From NCBI RefSeq assembly GCF_003605405.2, contig NZ_QYTW02000009.1:116489-151613 (forward strand): a stretch of DNA of 35,125 bases, given 5' to 3'. The notes below the pieces were generated by a model. That model did no database searches. It had not been told where the DNA came from and was given only the letters and a program-made list of their open reading frames with translations. Shown here piece after piece: positions 5,493-35,066 of this stretch. The translations under genes and the position numbers were made by a program. The first letter of the stretch is position 1. Each line of letters opens with the position of its first letter. The stretch is from Siminovitchia terrae. Lineage in GTDB: Bacteria > Bacillota > Bacilli > Bacillales > Bacillaceae_C.

Positions 5493-6236
5493 TTGACAGT
5501 AATGAGAAATAAAAAAAGGATGAATCCATTTGTTCAAATCGATAAGACGATGCTATCAGACGAAAAAATATCCTGGAAAGCCAAAGGAATACTTTCTTAT
5601 CTGTTAAGCAAACCTGACGGATGGATTACTTATATAACGGACATTGAAAAACGATCTGCAGACGGCAGGGATTCCGTTAGATCAGGAATAAAGGAACTTG
5701 CAGATGCGGGTTACATAATCCGGAAAAGGATTAGGGATAAGGGACAGTTTAAGGGATGGGAGTACGAAGTTTATGAGACCCCCGATGTCGGAAAAACCGA
5801 AAACGGAAAAGCCGATGTCGGGAAATCCGATTTCGGTAAAACCGACGTCGGAGAATCCAACACTAGTAATAATGATAGTAGTAATAATGATTTAAGTAAT
5901 AAAGAAGATAGTAATAATGATAATAATATACCCTATGTCGAGATAGTAACCTATCTCAACCAAGCGGCTTCAAAAAAATACCGTCATACAACACCGAAAA
6001 CAAAATCGATTATCAAGGCTCGCTGGAATGAGGGCTTTAGGCTGGATGATTTTAAAGCTGTAATAGATATCAAATGTAAAGAATGGCTGTCGGATGAAAA
6101 AATGAATAAATTCCTTCGACCTGAAACATTGTTCGGAACGAAGTTCGAATCCTACCTAAACCAAAAAGGCGGTGCAACAAGTGGAAAAGCTAACGATTCC
6201 GGGAACATTGCAGAAGAATATAACATACCATTCTGA
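5493..6236 (+). CDS. Phage replication initiator (DnaD-like / Phg_2220_C)
   Basis: A 247-residue initiator. Residues 10-95 form a winged-helix DNA-binding domain (WKAKGILSYLLSKPDGW, DSVRSGIKELADAGYI). Residues 98-143 are low-complexity pentapeptide repeats (DVGKT-like, then SNNDS-like). Residues 147-230 match the conserved C-terminal domain of phage replication proteins (KTKSIIKARWNEGF, FLRPETLFGTKFESYL). Start TTG 5493 lies 6 bases after GAGGTGA. It should bind its own internal iterons and recruit the loader encoded next. The pentapeptides exist because the coding DNA carries the origin repeats. Confidence 0.85.
   Translation: MTVMRNKKRMNPFVQIDKTMLSDEKISWKAKGILSYLLSKPDGWITYITDIEKRSADGRDSVRSGIKELADAGYIIRKRIRDKGQFKGWEYEVYETPDVGKTENGKADVGKSDFGKTDVGESNTSNNDSSNNDLSNKEDSNNDNNIPYVEIVTYLNQAASKKYRHTTPKTKSIIKARWNEGFRLDDFKAVIDIKCKEWLSDEKMNKFLRPETLFGTKFESYLNQKGGATSGKANDSGNIAEEYNIPF
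5782..5934. repeat. Putative replication origin: five iterons plus AT-rich 15-base repeats
   Basis: Palindromic iterons CCGAnnnCGG-type begin at 5782, 5797, 5812, 5827 and 5842, exactly 15 bases apart (CCGATGTCGG, CCGAAAACGG, CCGATGTCGG, CCGATTTCGG, CCGACGTCGG). They are followed by AT-rich repeats AGTAATAATGAT at 5865, 5880 and 5910, with a degenerate copy at 5895, on the same 15-base register. Iterons next to a melting region inside the initiator gene is the lambda O-type origin layout. Function is inferred. Confidence 0.7.
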
Positions 6237-7020
6237 TGTGTGTGATCGTCACACTTACATCAAGGCAGGCCAAGAGGTTGTTAAGCCTATTCAAAAGATG
6301 GTGATCGATGGTGTACTGGTTTGCCCTCGTTGTGAATTGGAGCAAGGTGACCGCGAACTACAGGAAGCAACACAAAAGGAATACGATGAATTCTTAAAGC
6401 AAAAGAAATACAACACTTTTTATAATCGTAGCATATTGGCGGACAATACAATTTTAGCAGCTACCTTGGAAAATTATCATACTGAGCACCAAGAGGAACG
6501 AAAGAATAAACAAACAGTTGTAGAGTCAATATCCCGTCTTAGAAATGGCCAAGTATTTAATTTGATCCTTCAAGGTAATCAAGGTGCTGGAAAAAGTCAC
6601 TTAGCTTACGCGGCTTTACGTGAATTAAATGAAAGTGGATTAGATGTATCATGTCTATTCGTAAATGTGGAAAGCATGATGCGGTTAATCAAAGACTCAT
6701 TTAATAATAAAGAGAGCAGATATACAGAGAATTATTTTGTGGAATTGATGTCTGAGGCTGATTATCTTGCACTGGATGATATTGGAGCGGAAACCGGCGC
6801 GATCGGAACAGACAAAATTGCTACAGATTTTGTTCAAAGGGTTCTATATGCTATTACAACCACCAGACAGGATAAATCAACTCTAATAACTACAAACCTA
6901 TCCAGCGAAACTCTATTCAGGATGTACGATAAAAAATTAGTATCACGGCTGTTTAGAAATCCTAAGTTTGTTGTATTCAAGGAAACCAAGGATAAGCGGA
7001 TGAATAATATTCCCTTTTAA
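6181..7020 (+). CDS. dnaC: DnaC-type helicase loader ATPase
   Basis: A 279-residue AAA+ protein that loads the replicative helicase at the phage origin. The N-terminus has a zinc site (C21, H24, C48, C51). Walker A is GNQGAGKSH (K138) and Walker B is LALDD (D199, D200), followed by sensor TLITTN and arginine finger SRLFR. GTG 6181 was chosen because AGGCGGTG lies 6 bases upstream; GTG 6172 in the same frame overlaps that site. The gene overlaps the initiator by 56 bases in another frame, indicating coupling. Confidence 0.9.
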   Translation: MEKLTIPGTLQKNITYHSDVCDRHTYIKAGQEVVKPIQKMVIDGVLVCPRCELEQGDRELQEATQKEYDEFLKQKKYNTFYNRSILADNTILAATLENYHTEHQEERKNKQTVVESISRLRNGQVFNLILQGNQGAGKSHLAYAALRELNESGLDVSCLFVNVESMMRLIKDSFNNKESRYTENYFVELMSEADYLALDDIGAETGAIGTDKIATDFVQRVLYAITTTRQDKSTLITTNLSSETLFRMYDKKLVSRLFRNPKFVVFKETKDKRMNNIPF

Positions 7021-7885: not shown

Positions 7886-8008
7886 TTGGAAAATATTTGT
7901 CCTATCTGTGGTGAAAGCGAAATGAAGCATTGGAACCAAGGAATTTATGAATGCGAAGATTGTGGAGCAATGGTTCCGGATTATGTTTTACAAGATATGT
8001 ATGAGTGA
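7886..8008 (+). CDS. 40-residue zinc-ribbon protein
   Basis: MENICPICGESEMKHW is followed by YECEDCGAMVPDY, giving two CxxC knuckles about 19 residues apart, a complete mini zinc ribbon. The start is TTG 7886, after GAAGGAGTGAG. The gene stands alone downstream of the 7819 stem-loop. Likely a nucleic-acid or protein-binding accessory factor; function unknown. Confidence 0.65.
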   Translation: MENICPICGESEMKHWNQGIYECEDCGAMVPDYVLQDMYE

Positions 8009-8072
8009 AAGAAGTGATCCCATGTAACAAATCAATCAAGACCTACGGGGTGGATGATGCTATTAATCAAGA

Positions 8073-8177
8073 ATGATTCATAAAAAGGCTTATGAATTAC
8101 ATTGGAATGTAGCCCTTAGAAAAGTAAATGTATATTACAACGGGGATGAAACTGAAGATCATCAACAAATTGGCTAG
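8073..8177 (+). pseudogene. Possible remnant of a small phage gene
   Basis: A 34-residue frame (MIHKKAYELHWNVALRKVNV then YYNGDETEDHQQIG) looks protein-like but has no ribosome site. Its ATG overlaps the stop of a 20-codon frame beginning GTG 8014. It lies antisense to the 3' end of the leftward membrane gene. It may be a truncated gene interrupted by that insertion, or chance. Confidence 0.2.
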
Positions 8178-8369
8178 TGCCACTGATCTATTTTCTGCCA
8201 AGTAACCAAAGTAAAAACCGATTGGACTAAGAATTAATGTTAATATTCCTGTCCCCACCTGGATGTTAAACACTAAATAAGGAAGCCAAGAAGCGATTCC
8301 AACAATCAAGATTACAATAGATATCCAATAAAAGAACTTAGTTTTCTTATTTATTGAGGCTTCGCTCAA
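8097..8369 (-). CDS. Leftward three-TM membrane protein
   Basis: A 90-residue integral membrane protein with hydrophobic segments at about 12-28, 36-55 and 63-82 and short basic ends. TTG 8369 was chosen because GGAAGGGGTG lies 6 bases upstream on the minus strand; the longer frame to 8414 starts within the upstream terminator. It is the only gene in this stretch read leftward, as in the lysogen, and has an extended -10 promoter (8464-8456). Superinfection exclusion or host-membrane modification is plausible but not shown. Confidence 0.65.
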   Translation of the reverse strand: MSEASINKKTKFFYWISIVILIVGIASWLPYLVFNIQVGTGILTLILSPIGFYFGYLAENRSVALANLLMIFSFIPVVIYIYFSKGYIPM

Positions 8370-8411
8370 TTTTTTCACCCCTTCCAATATTAGAAGAAGA
8401 ACAAAAATAAA

Positions 8412-8437
8412 CAAAAAGCCAGGATTTCCTCCCGGCT
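8412..8437 (-). terminator. Leader terminator upstream of the membrane gene
   Basis: On the minus strand AGCCGGGA pairs with TCCTGGCT and a T-run follows. It lies between the extended -10 promoter and the membrane gene, so it may be an attenuator. On the plus strand no T-run follows. Confidence 0.55.
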
Positions 8438-8455
8438 AAATACATATGCAAATTG

Positions 8456-8464
8456 ATTATACCA
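8456..8464 (-). promoter_or_regulatory. Extended -10 promoter for the leftward membrane gene
   Basis: Minus-strand TGGTATAAT is a perfect extended -10. Predicted start is near 8449, about 12 bases before the leader hairpin. Confidence 0.5.
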
Positions 8465-8483
8465 TATCTGGGAGGTATCTTTG

Positions 8484-8681
8484 ATGAGATTACAAGATAT
8501 TGAATTGACTGGTACAAATAGACTGGAATTAGATATAATGAAAATACCGTTAAGTTGTGTAATTGTAATATCTGATGGAAAAGCTAAGATAAGAGAACTA
8601 CCATCATATGGAGAATATAAAATTGTAACTTATCAAGGGAAAGTGAAGCGGATGAGAAGGGAAGAAGGTGAGGAATTTTGA
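8484..8681 (+). CDS. XtrA/YqaO-like phage protein
   Basis: A 65-residue protein resembling the XtrA family of PBSX and skin prophages. The conserved features are DIMKIPLSCVIVISDGKAK and the basic end KVKRMRREEGEEF. The function of the family is not established. ATG 8484 follows GGGAGGT by 8 bases; the TTG one codon earlier is closer than usual. Its stop overlaps the TTG of the DprA-like gene, so the defence-like cassette is coupled to this early phage gene. Confidence 0.6.
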   Translation: MRLQDIELTGTNRLELDIMKIPLSCVIVISDGKAKIRELPSYGEYKIVTYQGKVKRMRREEGEEF

Positions 8682-9550
8682 GTAGTAATGTGAATAGGAA
8701 TATGTTACTATTATTGAAACAATTTGGGTTTTCAGATAATACCTTAGACGCTATATATAACCAAGAGGAATCAATATTAGAAGTTATTTATGATGAAAAT
8801 CATATCTTTCACAATAAATATTTTGATATTTACACTGAAAAAGAAAAAGAATTGGCTAATAACTTGAACTTGCTTTTAGAGTTCGAAAAAAAATTTATCG
8901 ATAAAATGAATGACTACAAAAAAATGGGAATTAAAATTTTTTTCAAATATAGTGATGACTTTCCAAAACATATTTTCCCGGTGGGAAAAGAACCTTTATT
9001 TCTGTACAGTTATGGAAATACAGAATTACTTGAACAAAGATATAAAAAAGCAGCCATTATTGGGACAAGGAAATCAACAATTATGGGTGAAACCAAGACT
9101 AAAGAATATGTTAAGGAATACGTAAAAAAGGGTTGGGTAACTATTAGTGGGTTGGCTAAAGGCATCGACACCGTTGTACATAAAGAAACCCTAAATTATG
9201 GTGGATTAACTATAGCGATACTACCTACTTCTTTTGAAAAAATTTATCCTGCGCAAAATAAAGGTTTATTTCAAAAGATTATAGAAAAAGGTGGATTGGC
9301 GCTTACAACCATAGGGCCTTTTGAAAATACATATAAATCTAGCTTTTTGGATAGAAATATAATAGTAGCAAAAATGAGCGATGAAATTTTGATTATTGAA
9401 GCATCTATTAAAAGCGGTACATTAAACACTGTTCGTAATGGTTTTTATCTTGGAAAACCGATTTATTATAACAAAGAATTACTTTCTGAAGAAGTAATCA
9501 AATATATAGCAGAGTATAATGCTGTCGAATATCAAGCCAGAGGTGAATAG
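8678..9550 (+). CDS. DprA/Smf-like protein, ShosA-like antitoxin candidate
   Basis: A 290-residue DprA-family Rossmann protein. Visible signatures are GTRKST (129-134), SGLAKGID (157-164), ILPTSFEKIYPAQN (181-194, where DprA has a GxGxDxxYP-like segment) and EASIKSGTLNT (241-251). The N-terminal 120 residues are helical and there is no C-terminal winged helix. True DprA loads RecA on incoming ssDNA. Here it is paired with a phosphoribosyltransferase, as in the toxin-antitoxin defence system ShosTA, where the DprA homologue is the antitoxin. TTG 8678 follows AAGGTGAGG. The sequence is visibly more AT-rich than the structural genes. Confidence 0.8.
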   Translation: MSSNVNRNMLLLLKQFGFSDNTLDAIYNQEESILEVIYDENHIFHNKYFDIYTEKEKELANNLNLLLEFEKKFIDKMNDYKKMGIKIFFKYSDDFPKHIFPVGKEPLFLYSYGNTELLEQRYKKAAIIGTRKSTIMGETKTKEYVKEYVKKGWVTISGLAKGIDTVVHKETLNYGGLTIAILPTSFEKIYPAQNKGLFQKIIEKGGLALTTIGPFENTYKSSFLDRNIIVAKMSDEILIIEASIKSGTLNTVRNGFYLGKPIYYNKELLSEEVIKYIAEYNAVEYQARGE

Positions 9551-9551
9551 T

Positions 9552-10682
9552 ATGCCATTTTACATAGTGCTGTCCAGAAATGTTTTCTTTACCGAAGATG
9601 ATGAAATACGTCCAGAAACCCTAGAATTAATAGAACGTGTAAAAGGTACAGATATATTTATTGCGATAATGTCTAGAAAACTAGGGACTTATAAGGGTTT
9701 AGTAGATCAACTACTTGGGGATGGTCACCAAGTAATGTTTACTGATCGAAATAATTGGTATAAAGATCAAGGCGTTAATCGTAAACAGATTCTATTTGTT
9801 GGTGCGGTTAAACAAGATATGTGGATAGCTGCAAATAATAAAGCTTTATTAATTAACCCATTGTGGTTAGACAATGTCGAGGATGAAATTGAAGAATACG
9901 GATTTGCGTTAGAAAGTCCAAGTCAATTGATTGAATGTATAGAAATTCTCACTCTCGAGCCAGTAGCATTTGTGAATGAAAAAATTTCTCCTAAAAGTAA
10001 GTTGATAGCGATTTCTAACGCTAATAAGTATTATAAACTAACTCCAAAAAACAACGAAATGATTTATAAATATACAGGCATATTGAAATACAATAAAGAC
10101 CTTCATTTATACGCACTGTATTTTCATTATTTGACATTAATCATTAATAATGATGATTTTGACAACATTGACTATTGGATGACATTTCCTTCATCTAGTG
10201 GAAAAAATGAGAATGCAATATACTCAATAGCCAAAAACACAAGGTATTTATTTAAAAATCGATATAAAGATGAAATATTAATACGTCATACTCCTGCACA
10301 AAAATCTACTTCAATTGATTCAGCAAAGAGAATAGAGCAGGGAGCAGGTCGACACTTTAACACGTTAAATTTAAACCCTAATTATAAAGGGAAACTATCG
10401 GGGAAAAGAATTGTTGTTTTAGATGACTTTGTAACTAATGGCTCATCTTTTGAATCAGCTAGAAATTTATTAGAAGAACAAGGTGTTAAGGAAATAATAT
10501 TTTTGGCAATTGGTACCTTTAAAAAACTATATCAATATGAAGTCTATGAACTTCAAGGGAATGTATTTCAAGAAGGATATAGTTATGAATGCAGGAAGGC
10601 AAAATTTTTAAATTTTAACTATGATGATAGTGCCCTTGCTGTTACGGAAAAAATTTACGACATACTAAATAGTCATAAGTAA
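9552..10682 (+). CDS. HAD-like plus phosphoribosyltransferase protein, ShosT-like toxin candidate
   Basis: A 376-residue two-part protein. Residues 1-105 look like a HAD-type fold without its catalytic aspartates: the first strand reads YIVLSRNVFF where DxD is expected, and VGAVKQDMWIAANN resembles motif IV. Residues 200-376 are a type I phosphoribosyltransferase with PRPP loop IVVLDDFVTNGSSF (287-300; D291, D292). ATG 9552 follows AGAGGTGA one base after the DprA-like stop. The adjacency matches ShosTA, whose PRTase is the toxin and DprA homologue the antitoxin. Substrate and activity are unknown. A terminator ends the unit. Confidence 0.75.
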   Translation: MPFYIVLSRNVFFTEDDEIRPETLELIERVKGTDIFIAIMSRKLGTYKGLVDQLLGDGHQVMFTDRNNWYKDQGVNRKQILFVGAVKQDMWIAANNKALLINPLWLDNVEDEIEEYGFALESPSQLIECIEILTLEPVAFVNEKISPKSKLIAISNANKYYKLTPKNNEMIYKYTGILKYNKDLHLYALYFHYLTLIINNDDFDNIDYWMTFPSSSGKNENAIYSIAKNTRYLFKNRYKDEILIRHTPAQKSTSIDSAKRIEQGAGRHFNTLNLNPNYKGKLSGKRIVVLDDFVTNGSSFESARNLLEEQGVKEIIFLAIGTFKKLYQYEVYELQGNVFQEGYSYECRKAKFLNFNYDDSALAVTEKIYDILNSHK

Positions 10683-10743
10683 TGTTGGTGTAACTTACAG
10701 TTATACAATTAAGAGAGAGAAAATGTCCACCCAGCCCACTGGA

Positions 10744-10786
10744 GGACACTGAATGACGCAAAAGCGTTGTTTGGTGTCCTTTTTTA
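10744..10786 (+). terminator. Terminator after the DprA/PRTase pair
   Basis: GGACAC (10744-10749) and GTGTCC (10774-10779) close a long hairpin with an inner GACGC-AAAA-GCGTT stem, followed by seven Ts. Confidence 0.85.
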
Positions 10787-10980
10787 TTGGCTAAAAAGAA
10801 CTGACGAATCTTGAAAGAGCAATTGAAGGATTGGAAACGTAACTATTGAGAGCACGTAGCAAGTCATAGAAACGCCGTGTAGAGGTTTTAACAGATTCAG
10901 ATATAAATAGTTCAATCAATCGCCCTGTGTATGCAAAGGGGAAGGGCATAGCATACAGGCAAATATAAGGAGGGGTCGGA
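10787..10980 (+). other. Gap before the late activator, possible decayed gene
   Basis: No intact gene is visible. One frame reads NLERAIEGLET, stop, LLRARSKS, stop, KRRVEVLTDSDINSS and on to 10969, compatible with a small gene carrying two nonsense mutations but not proof of it. CCTGTGTATGC (10924) and GCATACAGG (10951) form an imperfect inverted repeat just upstream of the activator ribosome site. Confidence 0.25.
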
Positions 10981-11433
10981 GTGAAGAGAAACGAAATTGA
11001 GCAAATATTAAAGGACTATCACTGGATGATCAACAGCATCAAGGTTATGCGAGAGTCATTGAAGGATCCCGGGGAAGGACTGACGGCTCAATATGGCGTT
11101 GAATCATCTTTGCCCAAGCCAAAGGGAATGACTAGCGATCCAGTGCATAGAGAAGTCATAAGACGAGGAAAAAGGGTGAAAAAAATACGGGAGTTCGAAG
11201 AAAAGATATTGGAATTCCAAGGATTGTTCCATAAAGTTCATGATGAAAGGGAATGTGAAGTTCTTTACTGGCTCCTAGAAGGGAAAAGCTATCGGTGGAT
11301 TGGGTATCATATGGGGCTGTCAGCCTCTCACATTCAAAGGTTAAGAAATAACATAATCGATCATATGTCTGATACAAATGTTACAAATGGTACAAAGGAT
11401 ACGGATTTGAAAAATGAAAAATGTGCATGTTAG
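10981..11433 (+). CDS. ArpU/RinA-family late transcription activator
   Basis: A 150-residue regulator of the ArpU/RinA type, expected to switch on the late packaging, structural and lysis genes. Residues 1-75 are helical and basic. Residues 90-130 form a sigma-like HTH (ECEVLYWLLEGKSYRWIGYH followed by SASHIQRLRNN). Start GTG 10981 follows AAGGAGGGG. Its position between the early block and the packaging block fits this role. It is followed by a terminator. Confidence 0.82.
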   Translation: MKRNEIEQILKDYHWMINSIKVMRESLKDPGEGLTAQYGVESSLPKPKGMTSDPVHREVIRRGKRVKKIREFEEKILEFQGLFHKVHDERECEVLYWLLEGKSYRWIGYHMGLSASHIQRLRNNIIDHMSDTNVTNGTKDTDLKNEKCAC

Positions 11434-12487: not shown

Positions 12488-13189
12488 TTGAAACGTATTA
12501 TTATGTTCATATTAGTGTCTATAATTCTAGTCGGGTGTTCAATTGAAAGGGAATCACCCGAAGAAAGAGAAAAACTGAAAGCGAAAGAGCAAGAGACAAT
12601 TGAGCAAACAGATGGCCTTGAGGAAGGCTATGAAGTCGAAGAAGTGATAGAGTTAACTGCTCAAGAGCAAATGCTTGAAGATATAACAGATTTATTTGCA
12701 GATGATTTAGCTTTTGATACTGGATCATATGTTAAAGGAGATATACCAAAAGGAGAGTACGCATTTGTTACTTTCGAAGGTAGCGGACAATATTATTCTG
12801 AAAAAGATGCAGGTGGGAATATTATTGATAATGAAAACTTTGATAGTTTCGGATACGTAGAAGTACATGAAGCAGGAAACATTGAAACTAGTGGGGTATT
12901 AGTGAAAGTAGATGCATTGGATGAACTAGAGGTATCTGGAGCGAAAGAGCTTTATGAAACACTAAATAACACGGAAGAGTATATGGACTCAGGTTGGTAT
13001 AAAGTAGGTGTGGATATAGATCCTGGTGAATATGTCATTGAAAGTTTTGGGGACGGATATGTCGCTGTTATGACTGGACCTGTTGGAAACAATGAGATTA
13101 TAAATAACGAAAATTTTAATGGGAGATACTCTGTGAATGTACAAGAAGGTCAATACTTAGTAATTTCAAGAGGAACAATTTCTAATTAA
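12488..13189 (+). CDS. Prophage lipoprotein with a duplicated domain
   Basis: A 233-residue secreted lipoprotein. A signal peptide ends in lipobox LVGC with acylated C17, followed by an acidic linker. Two copies of one domain follow (about 78-136 and 167-230), sharing GxYxxGxDIxxGEY and II(D/N)NENF. It is anchored on the outer face of the membrane. Surface lipoproteins of prophages often alter superinfection or host surface properties; that role is an inference here. TTG 12488 follows AGGGGG. It stands alone between the regulatory and packaging modules. Confidence 0.8.
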   Translation: MKRIIMFILVSIILVGCSIERESPEEREKLKAKEQETIEQTDGLEEGYEVEEVIELTAQEQMLEDITDLFADDLAFDTGSYVKGDIPKGEYAFVTFEGSGQYYSEKDAGGNIIDNENFDSFGYVEVHEAGNIETSGVLVKVDALDELEVSGAKELYETLNNTEEYMDSGWYKVGVDIDPGEYVIESFGDGYVAVMTGPVGNNEIINNENFNGRYSVNVQEGQYLVISRGTISN

Positions 13190-34142: not shown

Positions 34143-35066
34143 ATGAGTAAAATTGCAGACTTATCACATCATCAAGGTAATATTAATTGGGCAAATGCAA
34201 GTAAGGAGTTAGACTTTGCTATCCTACGGGTGCAAGACGGTTCCAGGGTAATTGATCGCCAATATAAAAATTATGTCGCTGGTGCAAAGCAATACGGCGT
34301 TCCGTTTGGTAACTATGCCTTTACACGCTTTGTCAGCATTGCCGATGCAAGAGTGGAAGCACGAGACTTCTGGAATCGTGGCGATAAATCAGCCGAGTTT
34401 TGGATCGCTGACGTGGAGGTCAAAACGATGGACGATATGCGGGCAGGTGCTCAAGCCTTCATTGACGAGCTACGGCGTTTGGGAGCCAAGAAAGTAGGTT
34501 TGTATGTTGGGCATCATGTTTACAAGCAATTCCAGGCTGATAAGATTAAAGCTGATTTTGTTTGGATTCCGCGCTATGGAGGACCTGAACCATCTTACCC
34601 ATGCGATCTATGGCAGTACACGGAGACCGGACGTTTGGCAGGGGTAGCTGGCAATGTGGATTTAAACAGGCTCACAGGCAGCAAGTCATTGTCATACTTT
34701 GTTGGAGGGATGGCAACAGCTCCGCCAGCTGCCAATCAAAAGCCAGTTGCTAATGCTCATATCGTCAAAGCAGGAGACACGTTGTCCGCTATTGCTAAAA
34801 AATACAAGACGACTGTAGCCGAGTTGGTCCGTATCAACGGCCTAAAGAATCCTGACGTTATTCGTGTGGGGCAAACAATTAAACTGCCAGGATCTGCCCC
34901 AGCAAAGGCACCTACTCAAAAAGCCGTTTACCACACGGTAAAACATGGCGATACAGTGAGTGGGCTAGCCGTTAAATTTAAGGTTACCCAGGCGCAGATT
35001 AAAAGCTGGAATCAGCTTAAAGATATCAATAAGATTAATGTTGGCCAAAAGTTGAGGGTTAAATAA
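34143..35066 (+). CDS. Endolysin: GH25 lysozyme with two LysM domains
   Basis: A 307-residue cell-wall hydrolase. Residues 1-185 are a GH25 muramidase with DLSHHQ (D6) and catalytic D90/E92 in WIADVEV. Two LysM repeats bind peptidoglycan (206-249, [19 protein letters not shown]; 263-306, [19 protein letters not shown]). There is no signal peptide, so release depends on the holin. ATG 34143 follows AAGGGAGAGGG. Confidence 0.95.

Follow-up and report, generated by a model that had tools for sequence, protein, structure and literature searches.

The closest described counterpart of the locus analyzed here is ShosTA of P2-like Escherichia phages (PDB 8zva-8zvd, 9vzo, 9w2p, 9w2q; Rousset et al. 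2022, PMC9122126). A relative has been described as a toxin-antitoxin system and protects against phages. PMC12593503, citing Pu et al. 2025, describes ShosT as a phosphoribosyltransferase (PRTase) and pyrophosphatase that disturbs purine pools, and ShosA as a DNA-binding protein. For RqlHI, PMC4670107 reports that the PRTase domain of RqlH is required for genotoxicity and that the DprA-like RqlI restrains RqlH. Here, we analyzed a 35,125-nucleotide stretch of DNA from Siminovitchia terrae (contig NZ_QYTW02000009.1, positions 116,489 to 151,613; hereafter, the window). Family matches of its proteins indicated that the window covers the greater part of a prophage. Two adjacent genes, shosA and shosT, follow the small phage gene xtrA in it, and this pair is very probably a ShosTA toxin-antitoxin antiphage module carried as prophage cargo.

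The window pair shares with ShosTA of P2-like phages the gene order shosA-shosT, the domain architecture and fold of ShosT, the motif that binds phosphoribosyl pyrophosphate (PRPP), the prophage location and the insertion in a variable hotspot. It differs in identity (19-31%, depending on the alignment), in a ShosA that is shorter at both ends, and in occupying another hotspot, with a start codon overlapping xtrA; the copy used for comparison was that of P24C9, which may not be the copy tested by Rousset et al. In PsyrTA and RqlHI, too, the toxin carries a PRTase domain and is paired with a DprA-like protein. However, their toxins are helicase-PRTases, whereas the window ShosT has no helicase match. 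Like the antiviral hotspots of P2 and P4 phages (PMC9122126), the place occupied by the pair is fixed and holds varying genes, including defence genes. Unlike those hotspots, this slot lies between xtrA and a terminator preceding a regulator, its borders are nearly nucleotide-fixed in many loci, and the start codon lies inside the xtrA stop. The backbone order of xtrA, terminator and regulator is also that of the xtrA-xpf region of PBSX-type prophages. In contrast to the window, the slot looks empty in 17 loci, many of this xtrA-xpf type. ShosTA and phage defence hotspots are already known, and the xtrA slot is the newer part; a limited search, with subscription papers and bioRxiv mostly outside it, returned no paper describing this slot, which is weak evidence of novelty.

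Results

The shosA-shosT pair belongs to the ShosTA family

The features of the locus are as follows (window coordinates).
8417..8437, unstranded: hairpin 5' of xtrA, resembling a terminator when read on the - strand
8438..8483, +: sequence resembling a promoter for xtrA (tataccata followed by GGGAGG)
8484..8681, +: xtrA, a small phage gene that forms the left border of the slot (Pfam PF17356, PBSX_XtrA, 7e-16)
8666..8681, +: xtrA 3' end, with the possible ribosome-binding sequence AGGTGAGG, then TTTTGA containing the TTG start of the cargo
8678..9550, +: shosA, DprA-like antitoxin and probable DNA sensor (PADLOC ShosA, tree)
9552..10682, +: shosT, N-terminal HAD-like domain (about residues 1-135) and C-terminal PRTase domain
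10725..10788, +: conserved right-border element, with the terminator hairpin at 10741-10782
10981..11433, +: probable late-gene regulator, the next backbone gene (phrog_1058, phrog_36)

The shosA frame (8678-9550) starts at TTG and encodes 290 amino acids (aa). The shosT frame spans 9519-10682, and its likely start is the ATG at 9552, one base past the shosA stop (9548-9550), as a preliminary description of this DNA had stated for its DprA-like and PRTase genes. Both proteins scored best to the ShosA and ShosT models of PADLOC, bearing out at the sequence level the ShosTA-like reading of that description. The shosA product matched ShosA at 3.3e-63 compared to 1e-23 for PsyrA, and Pfam DNA_processg_A at 9e-50. 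Its 164.9 bits were below the NCBIfam dprA equivalog cut-off (191.15 bits), and the 26.2 bits of the shosT product were below that of comF (233.55 bits). The ShosTA reading thereby passed the profile search suggested in that description, whose refuting outcome would have been scores to housekeeping DprA and ComF-type PRTases only. In a tree, the shosA product branched outside the DprA clade, and the host genome has another DprA besides it. The ShosA family profile matched PDB 8zva/9vzo, and the window ShosT was ShosT-like over 348 of 376 residues in a structure comparison (VIA-align). Family profiles, tree and structure comparison were thus concordant, and they support the pair as ShosTA, a putative distant new member of a known family.

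Two other assignments were rejected. A housekeeping DprA/ComF identity was discarded on the PADLOC scores, the NCBIfam cut-offs and the tree. Membership in PsyrTA/RqlHI was discarded because no helicase family matched in Pfam up to E 1; the PsyrT profile reached only 0.0037 with the window ShosT.

The PRPP motif of ShosT is VVLDDFVTNGSS, and D291, D292, T295 and G297 of the PRPP loop were invariant in 18 of 18 rows. Similarly, the residues of the ShosA motifs G.R, SGLA.G.D, RN and KSGT were invariant in 17 of 17 rows. Residues of such motifs have a DNA-binding role in DprA.

Relatives were searched with a ShosT profile built from six ShosT rows. Close relatives are rare in the order, since 4 of 397 genomes, including that of the window, matched at E 1e-12 or better. 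A scan of genome contigs gave seven loci, and a scan of viral contigs gave 13, one of which was the window prophage itself. The plasmid collection held 38 ShosT records, five of which were inspected, and the phage collection held three, all P2-like phages, two being one genome. ShosA adjoined ShosT in 32 of 34 loci, the other two being cut at a contig end. The order was usually shosA-shosT, with reversals in L004, L038 (Tunicatimonas) and L043. In another prophage (L041), whose left border was cut by the contig end, ShosT was 47% identical and the right-border element lay about 9 nt past its stop. By eye, ShosTA also lay between an ArpU-like regulator and the terminase genes in a prophage of another type (L042, 7102-9140), and from this placement the early/late boundary may be a frequent ShosTA location.

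The left border is the xtrA stop codon

Matches to xtrA (PF17356) were found in 97 of the 397 genomes of the order and, among 14 named control genomes, only in Bacillus subtilis. We took 100 match rows, mostly the higher-scoring ones, leaving out weaker and often partial rows; 98 had a usable xtrA frame by our own profile, two had none, and with the window they made 99 loci. These are not all independent because some share one prophage with two xtrA copies (L130/L188).

In the window, the shosA TTG (8678-8680) overlaps the xtrA stop (8679-8681). The codon overlap with an XtrA-like gene, noted in the preliminary description, is thus real, and it recurs: in 33 of the 99 loci, the nearest downstream frame opened at a TTG that shares bases with the xtrA stop. 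All but one of these coupled frames had at least 100 codons, and the 32 fell into 25 phmmer clusters at E 1e-3. Where xtrA ended in TTTTGA, the frame from that TTG stayed open for 100 codons or more in 31 of 40 cases. In the same loci, this was so for 14 of 93 other TTGA-ending frames with a minimum length of 60 aa (p 6e-12 against the 31 of 40) and for 82 of 594 other TTTTGA sites. Frames in the same loci ending in ATGA, GTGA or TTGA gave 137 of 364, true gene overlaps being common there. Conservation in the 33 coupled loci fell from 1.48 bits per column over the final 30 xtrA bases to 0.26 over the next 30; only the sharpness of this drop is informative, since xtrA is a conserved coding sequence.

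The 3' ends of coupled xtrA genes paired with the anti-Shine-Dalgarno sequence better than the mean of their synonymous versions in 29 of 32 loci (mean z -0.69). However, an internal xtrA stretch gave a stronger z (-1.13) in the same test, and selection on synonymous sites for a ribosome-binding sequence was therefore not shown with these 32 loci. Pairing averaged -11.9 kcal/mol in coupled loci versus -4.9 kcal/mol in 14 empty ones, and the strong pairing of the xtrA end appears to be largely a consequence of the amino acids encoded there. We propose that the xtrA 3' end would supply the ribosome-binding site of shosA. The slot also poses the question of what maintains the conserved XtrA C-terminus, the protein itself or the start signal that it encodes.

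The right border is a conserved terminator element

Downstream of xtrA, 95 of the 99 loci carried a conserved noncoding element composed of AGTTCTACCAGCCNACTGGAGGACACTGA followed by a hairpin and a T-run; the element profile was iterated on these same loci, and some matches were weak. It lay 3-48 nt past the xtrA stop in the 17 empty-looking slots and at least 374 nt past it, beyond the cargo, in the others. In the window, it begins 43 nt past the shosT end, and the stretch that contains its terminator (10741-10782) folded at -31.7 kcal/mol (z -5.75), with 0 of 200 shuffles as stable. The preliminary description had given the cassette its own terminator. A strong terminator is indeed present, but because it also occurs in slots that look empty, it is probably not the cassette's own, and that part of the claim was rejected.

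Among the 32 coupled loci with an element, it began -1 to +14 nt from the end of the first cargo gene in 19, and the remaining 13, the window among them, mostly held several cargo genes. Compensatory changes kept 8 of 18 consensus pairs in at least one of 54 element sequences. Allowing at most one mismatch, the element pattern matched 53 times, in 45 of 394 genomes; 50 of these matches lay within 8 kb downstream of a same-strand xtrA match; the reversed pattern gave none among the matches listed. The window copy is too divergent for this pattern, and 10600-10900 matched no Rfam family up to E 1.

An extra copy of the xtrA end or of the element was held by 14 of the 99 loci. Several of these look like tandem cassettes (L130 with L188, L140, L184, L187), and others had only a second terminator-like match. 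In L130/L188 (G225), xtrA, cargo, element, partial xtrA, a RelA/SpoT-like gene and element followed one another. A second xtrA region in the genome of the window (L171, G000:C45:8225-16719) held three cargo genes, the first being DUF1643, with one full and two partial element copies between and behind them and a sequence like the xtrA 3' end after one partial copy. A partial and a full element with no recognised xtrA nearby were also observed in this genome (L222, G000:C10:16000-27000), possibly representing an xtrA-less slot.

Cargo of the slot

The slot is the same place with differing cargo across loci. We collected cargo from 41 loci other than the window that had an xtrA of the E-E/D-F type and a recognised regulator, 40 of which gave 81 proteins. 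Pfam matches were putAbiC (4), HNH (4), DUF1643 (3), PIN_8 (2), MrcB_N (2), RelA_SpoT (2), UPF0489 (2) and SIR2_2 (1), and PADLOC matches included mREase_IV (4), AbiP (3), AbiC (3), PDC-S33 (2) and PDC-S25 (1). The cargo proteins matched 26 PADLOC families versus 76 for 81 late-gene controls, whose listed matches included methyltransferases in two members and PD-T7-4 in the first member. Since both sets matched, no PADLOC enrichment is claimed. When 20 hand-picked cargo proteins were scanned singly, nine matched a PADLOC model. Pfam families of the controls were mainly terminase and portal, with N6_N4_Mtase (2) and HNH (2), among the best 25 of 42 families; putAbiC, PIN_8, MrcB_N, RelA_SpoT and SIR2_2 occurred in cargo and not among these 25. 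An enrichment of defence genes in the slot is thus only indicated.

Several cargoes looked like small membrane proteins and had no family. Those of L098, L103, L107, L108, L123 and L141 form one cluster of this kind and are candidate exclusion or defence proteins. Slots were filled in 54 of 60 loci with xtrA ending in E-E/D-F versus 21 of 35 others (p 0.001; four element-less loci left out); when the regulator was instead taken as the right border, the counts for the two xtrA types were 41 of 43 versus 6 of 18 (p 8e-7; the 37 loci lacking a recognised regulator were excluded). Both p values ignore phage kinship.

Expression of xtrA and its cargo

By eye, many of 60 xtrA genes are preceded by hairpins like that at 8417..8437, and for 48 of the 60 the upstream region had a more stable fold than its shuffled versions had on average. 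A -10-like box, whose pattern was chosen after inspecting the sequences, occurred upstream of xtrA in 42 of 60 loci versus 1.6 expected. In the window, a sigma-70 scan found no match in 8438..8483. The upstream hairpin and -10-like box, together with the downstream terminator, suggest that xtrA and its cargo form their own transcription unit, rather than expression tied to the lytic programme, which the preliminary description had raised next to protection of the lysogen.

Possibly, although we hold it slightly less probable than its opposite, xtrA and the element together serve a large prophage family as a dedicated socket for cassettes. This would entail that the xtrA 3' end brings the ribosome-binding sequence and the TTG while the element ends the transcript, that a gene placed between the borders needs neither its own promoter nor its own start signal to be expressed, that recombination in the conserved flanks swaps the cargo, and that cassettes can be stacked in tandem behind new leaders made of partial xtrA ends. 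If so, many cargoes without a family would be undescribed antiphage systems. The slot is more useful than the pair, in that two short sequence borders expose the cargo of a prophage family, and the 25 clusters among the 32 coupled first genes are candidates for one plug-in construct.

Discussion

By analogy with the relatives, whose published toxicity, antitoxin action, purine effect and phage protection are taken over here, the window copy would work as follows. ShosT would be the toxin, and its PRTase domain would bind PRPP. Once released, it would upset the purine-nucleotide pool and damage DNA, such that the infected cell stops. ShosA, with its conserved DprA-fold residues, would hold ShosT in check and would probably respond to an infecting phage by sensing its abnormal DNA or DNA-protein complexes. 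Made in the lysogen, the module would guard it against other phages, benefiting the prophage. It fills the cassette slot between the xtrA stop codon and the conserved terminator element.

Several points weigh against this interpretation. The activity of the window copy is a prediction from its sequence, its identity to the tested kind of ShosTA is low, and its expression in the lysogen is presumed. The reported triggers differ between sources, being single-stranded DNA-binding protein (SSB) in one and T7 Gp0.7 in another. Taken alone, the window ShosT matches the solved chain in two pieces only. Its first strand (residues 3-8) is followed by Arg-Asn, and no DxD, the motif of HAD enzymes, was seen by eye. 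Pyrophosphatase activity via the usual HAD route is therefore doubtful in the window ShosT, whose HAD-like domain may be structural.

Alternatively, the pair could be an addiction module that retains the prophage, where prophage loss frees a stable toxin and phage defence is a side effect. In favour of this, relatives have been classed as toxin-antitoxin systems, and besides the prophage-borne pair of the window, plasmid-borne ones occur elsewhere. We nevertheless consider this unlikely, as a relative protects against phages and the matches of other slot cargoes to defence families, recognised or candidate, suggest that their common benefit is defence. It is quite improbable that the module instead serves the lytic cycle of the resident phage, for instance by shifting nucleotide pools or excluding co-infecting phages upon induction: the TTG start overlapping the stop of a phage gene would fit such a role, but the hairpin and -10-like box upstream of xtrA, the terminator ending the unit ahead of the regulator and the variation of cargo between phages speak against it. 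The preference for a ShosTA module is strongest when set against a housekeeping-type DprA and ComF-like competence pair, acquired by the phage for recombination or DNA uptake. Both domains occur in competence proteins, and the shosA product matches DNA_processg_A; however, the scores below both cut-offs, the position outside the DprA clade, the other DprA of the genome and the conservation of shosA and shosT as a unit make this explanation hardly credible. As a ShosTA module, the pair extends a toxin family with recent structures by a distant prophage member and can help to test which ShosTA features are general.

Other features of the window prophage

The remaining features that place the locus in the prophage are as follows.
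331-1476, -: integrase
1544-2194, -: CI-like repressor
6172-7020: DnaC-like loader
within the window prophage: HNH, terminase and portal genes
34143-35066: endolysin

The block of xtrA, shosA and shosT sits between the early genes and the probable regulator at 10981-11433. This gene matched phrog_1058 (unknown function) at 2e-32 and the transcriptional regulator phrog_36 at 1.6e-9, and matched phage_rinA at 0.0007, below the cut-off of that model. The mechanical frame of xtrA opens at TTG 8481. Just 5' of xtrA, a membrane-protein-like frame of 105 aa (8097-8414, -) gave no convincing family match and is a possible second accessory gene. A further candidate is a lipoprotein-like gene 3' of the regulator (12488-13189), which had no Pfam match at 0.01 and only weak matches to PHROGs, the best at 2e-8. 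In 1-kb windows, G+C was 31-33% over 8001-11000 compared to 36-46% elsewhere, in line with the AT-richness noted for the cassette in the preliminary description.
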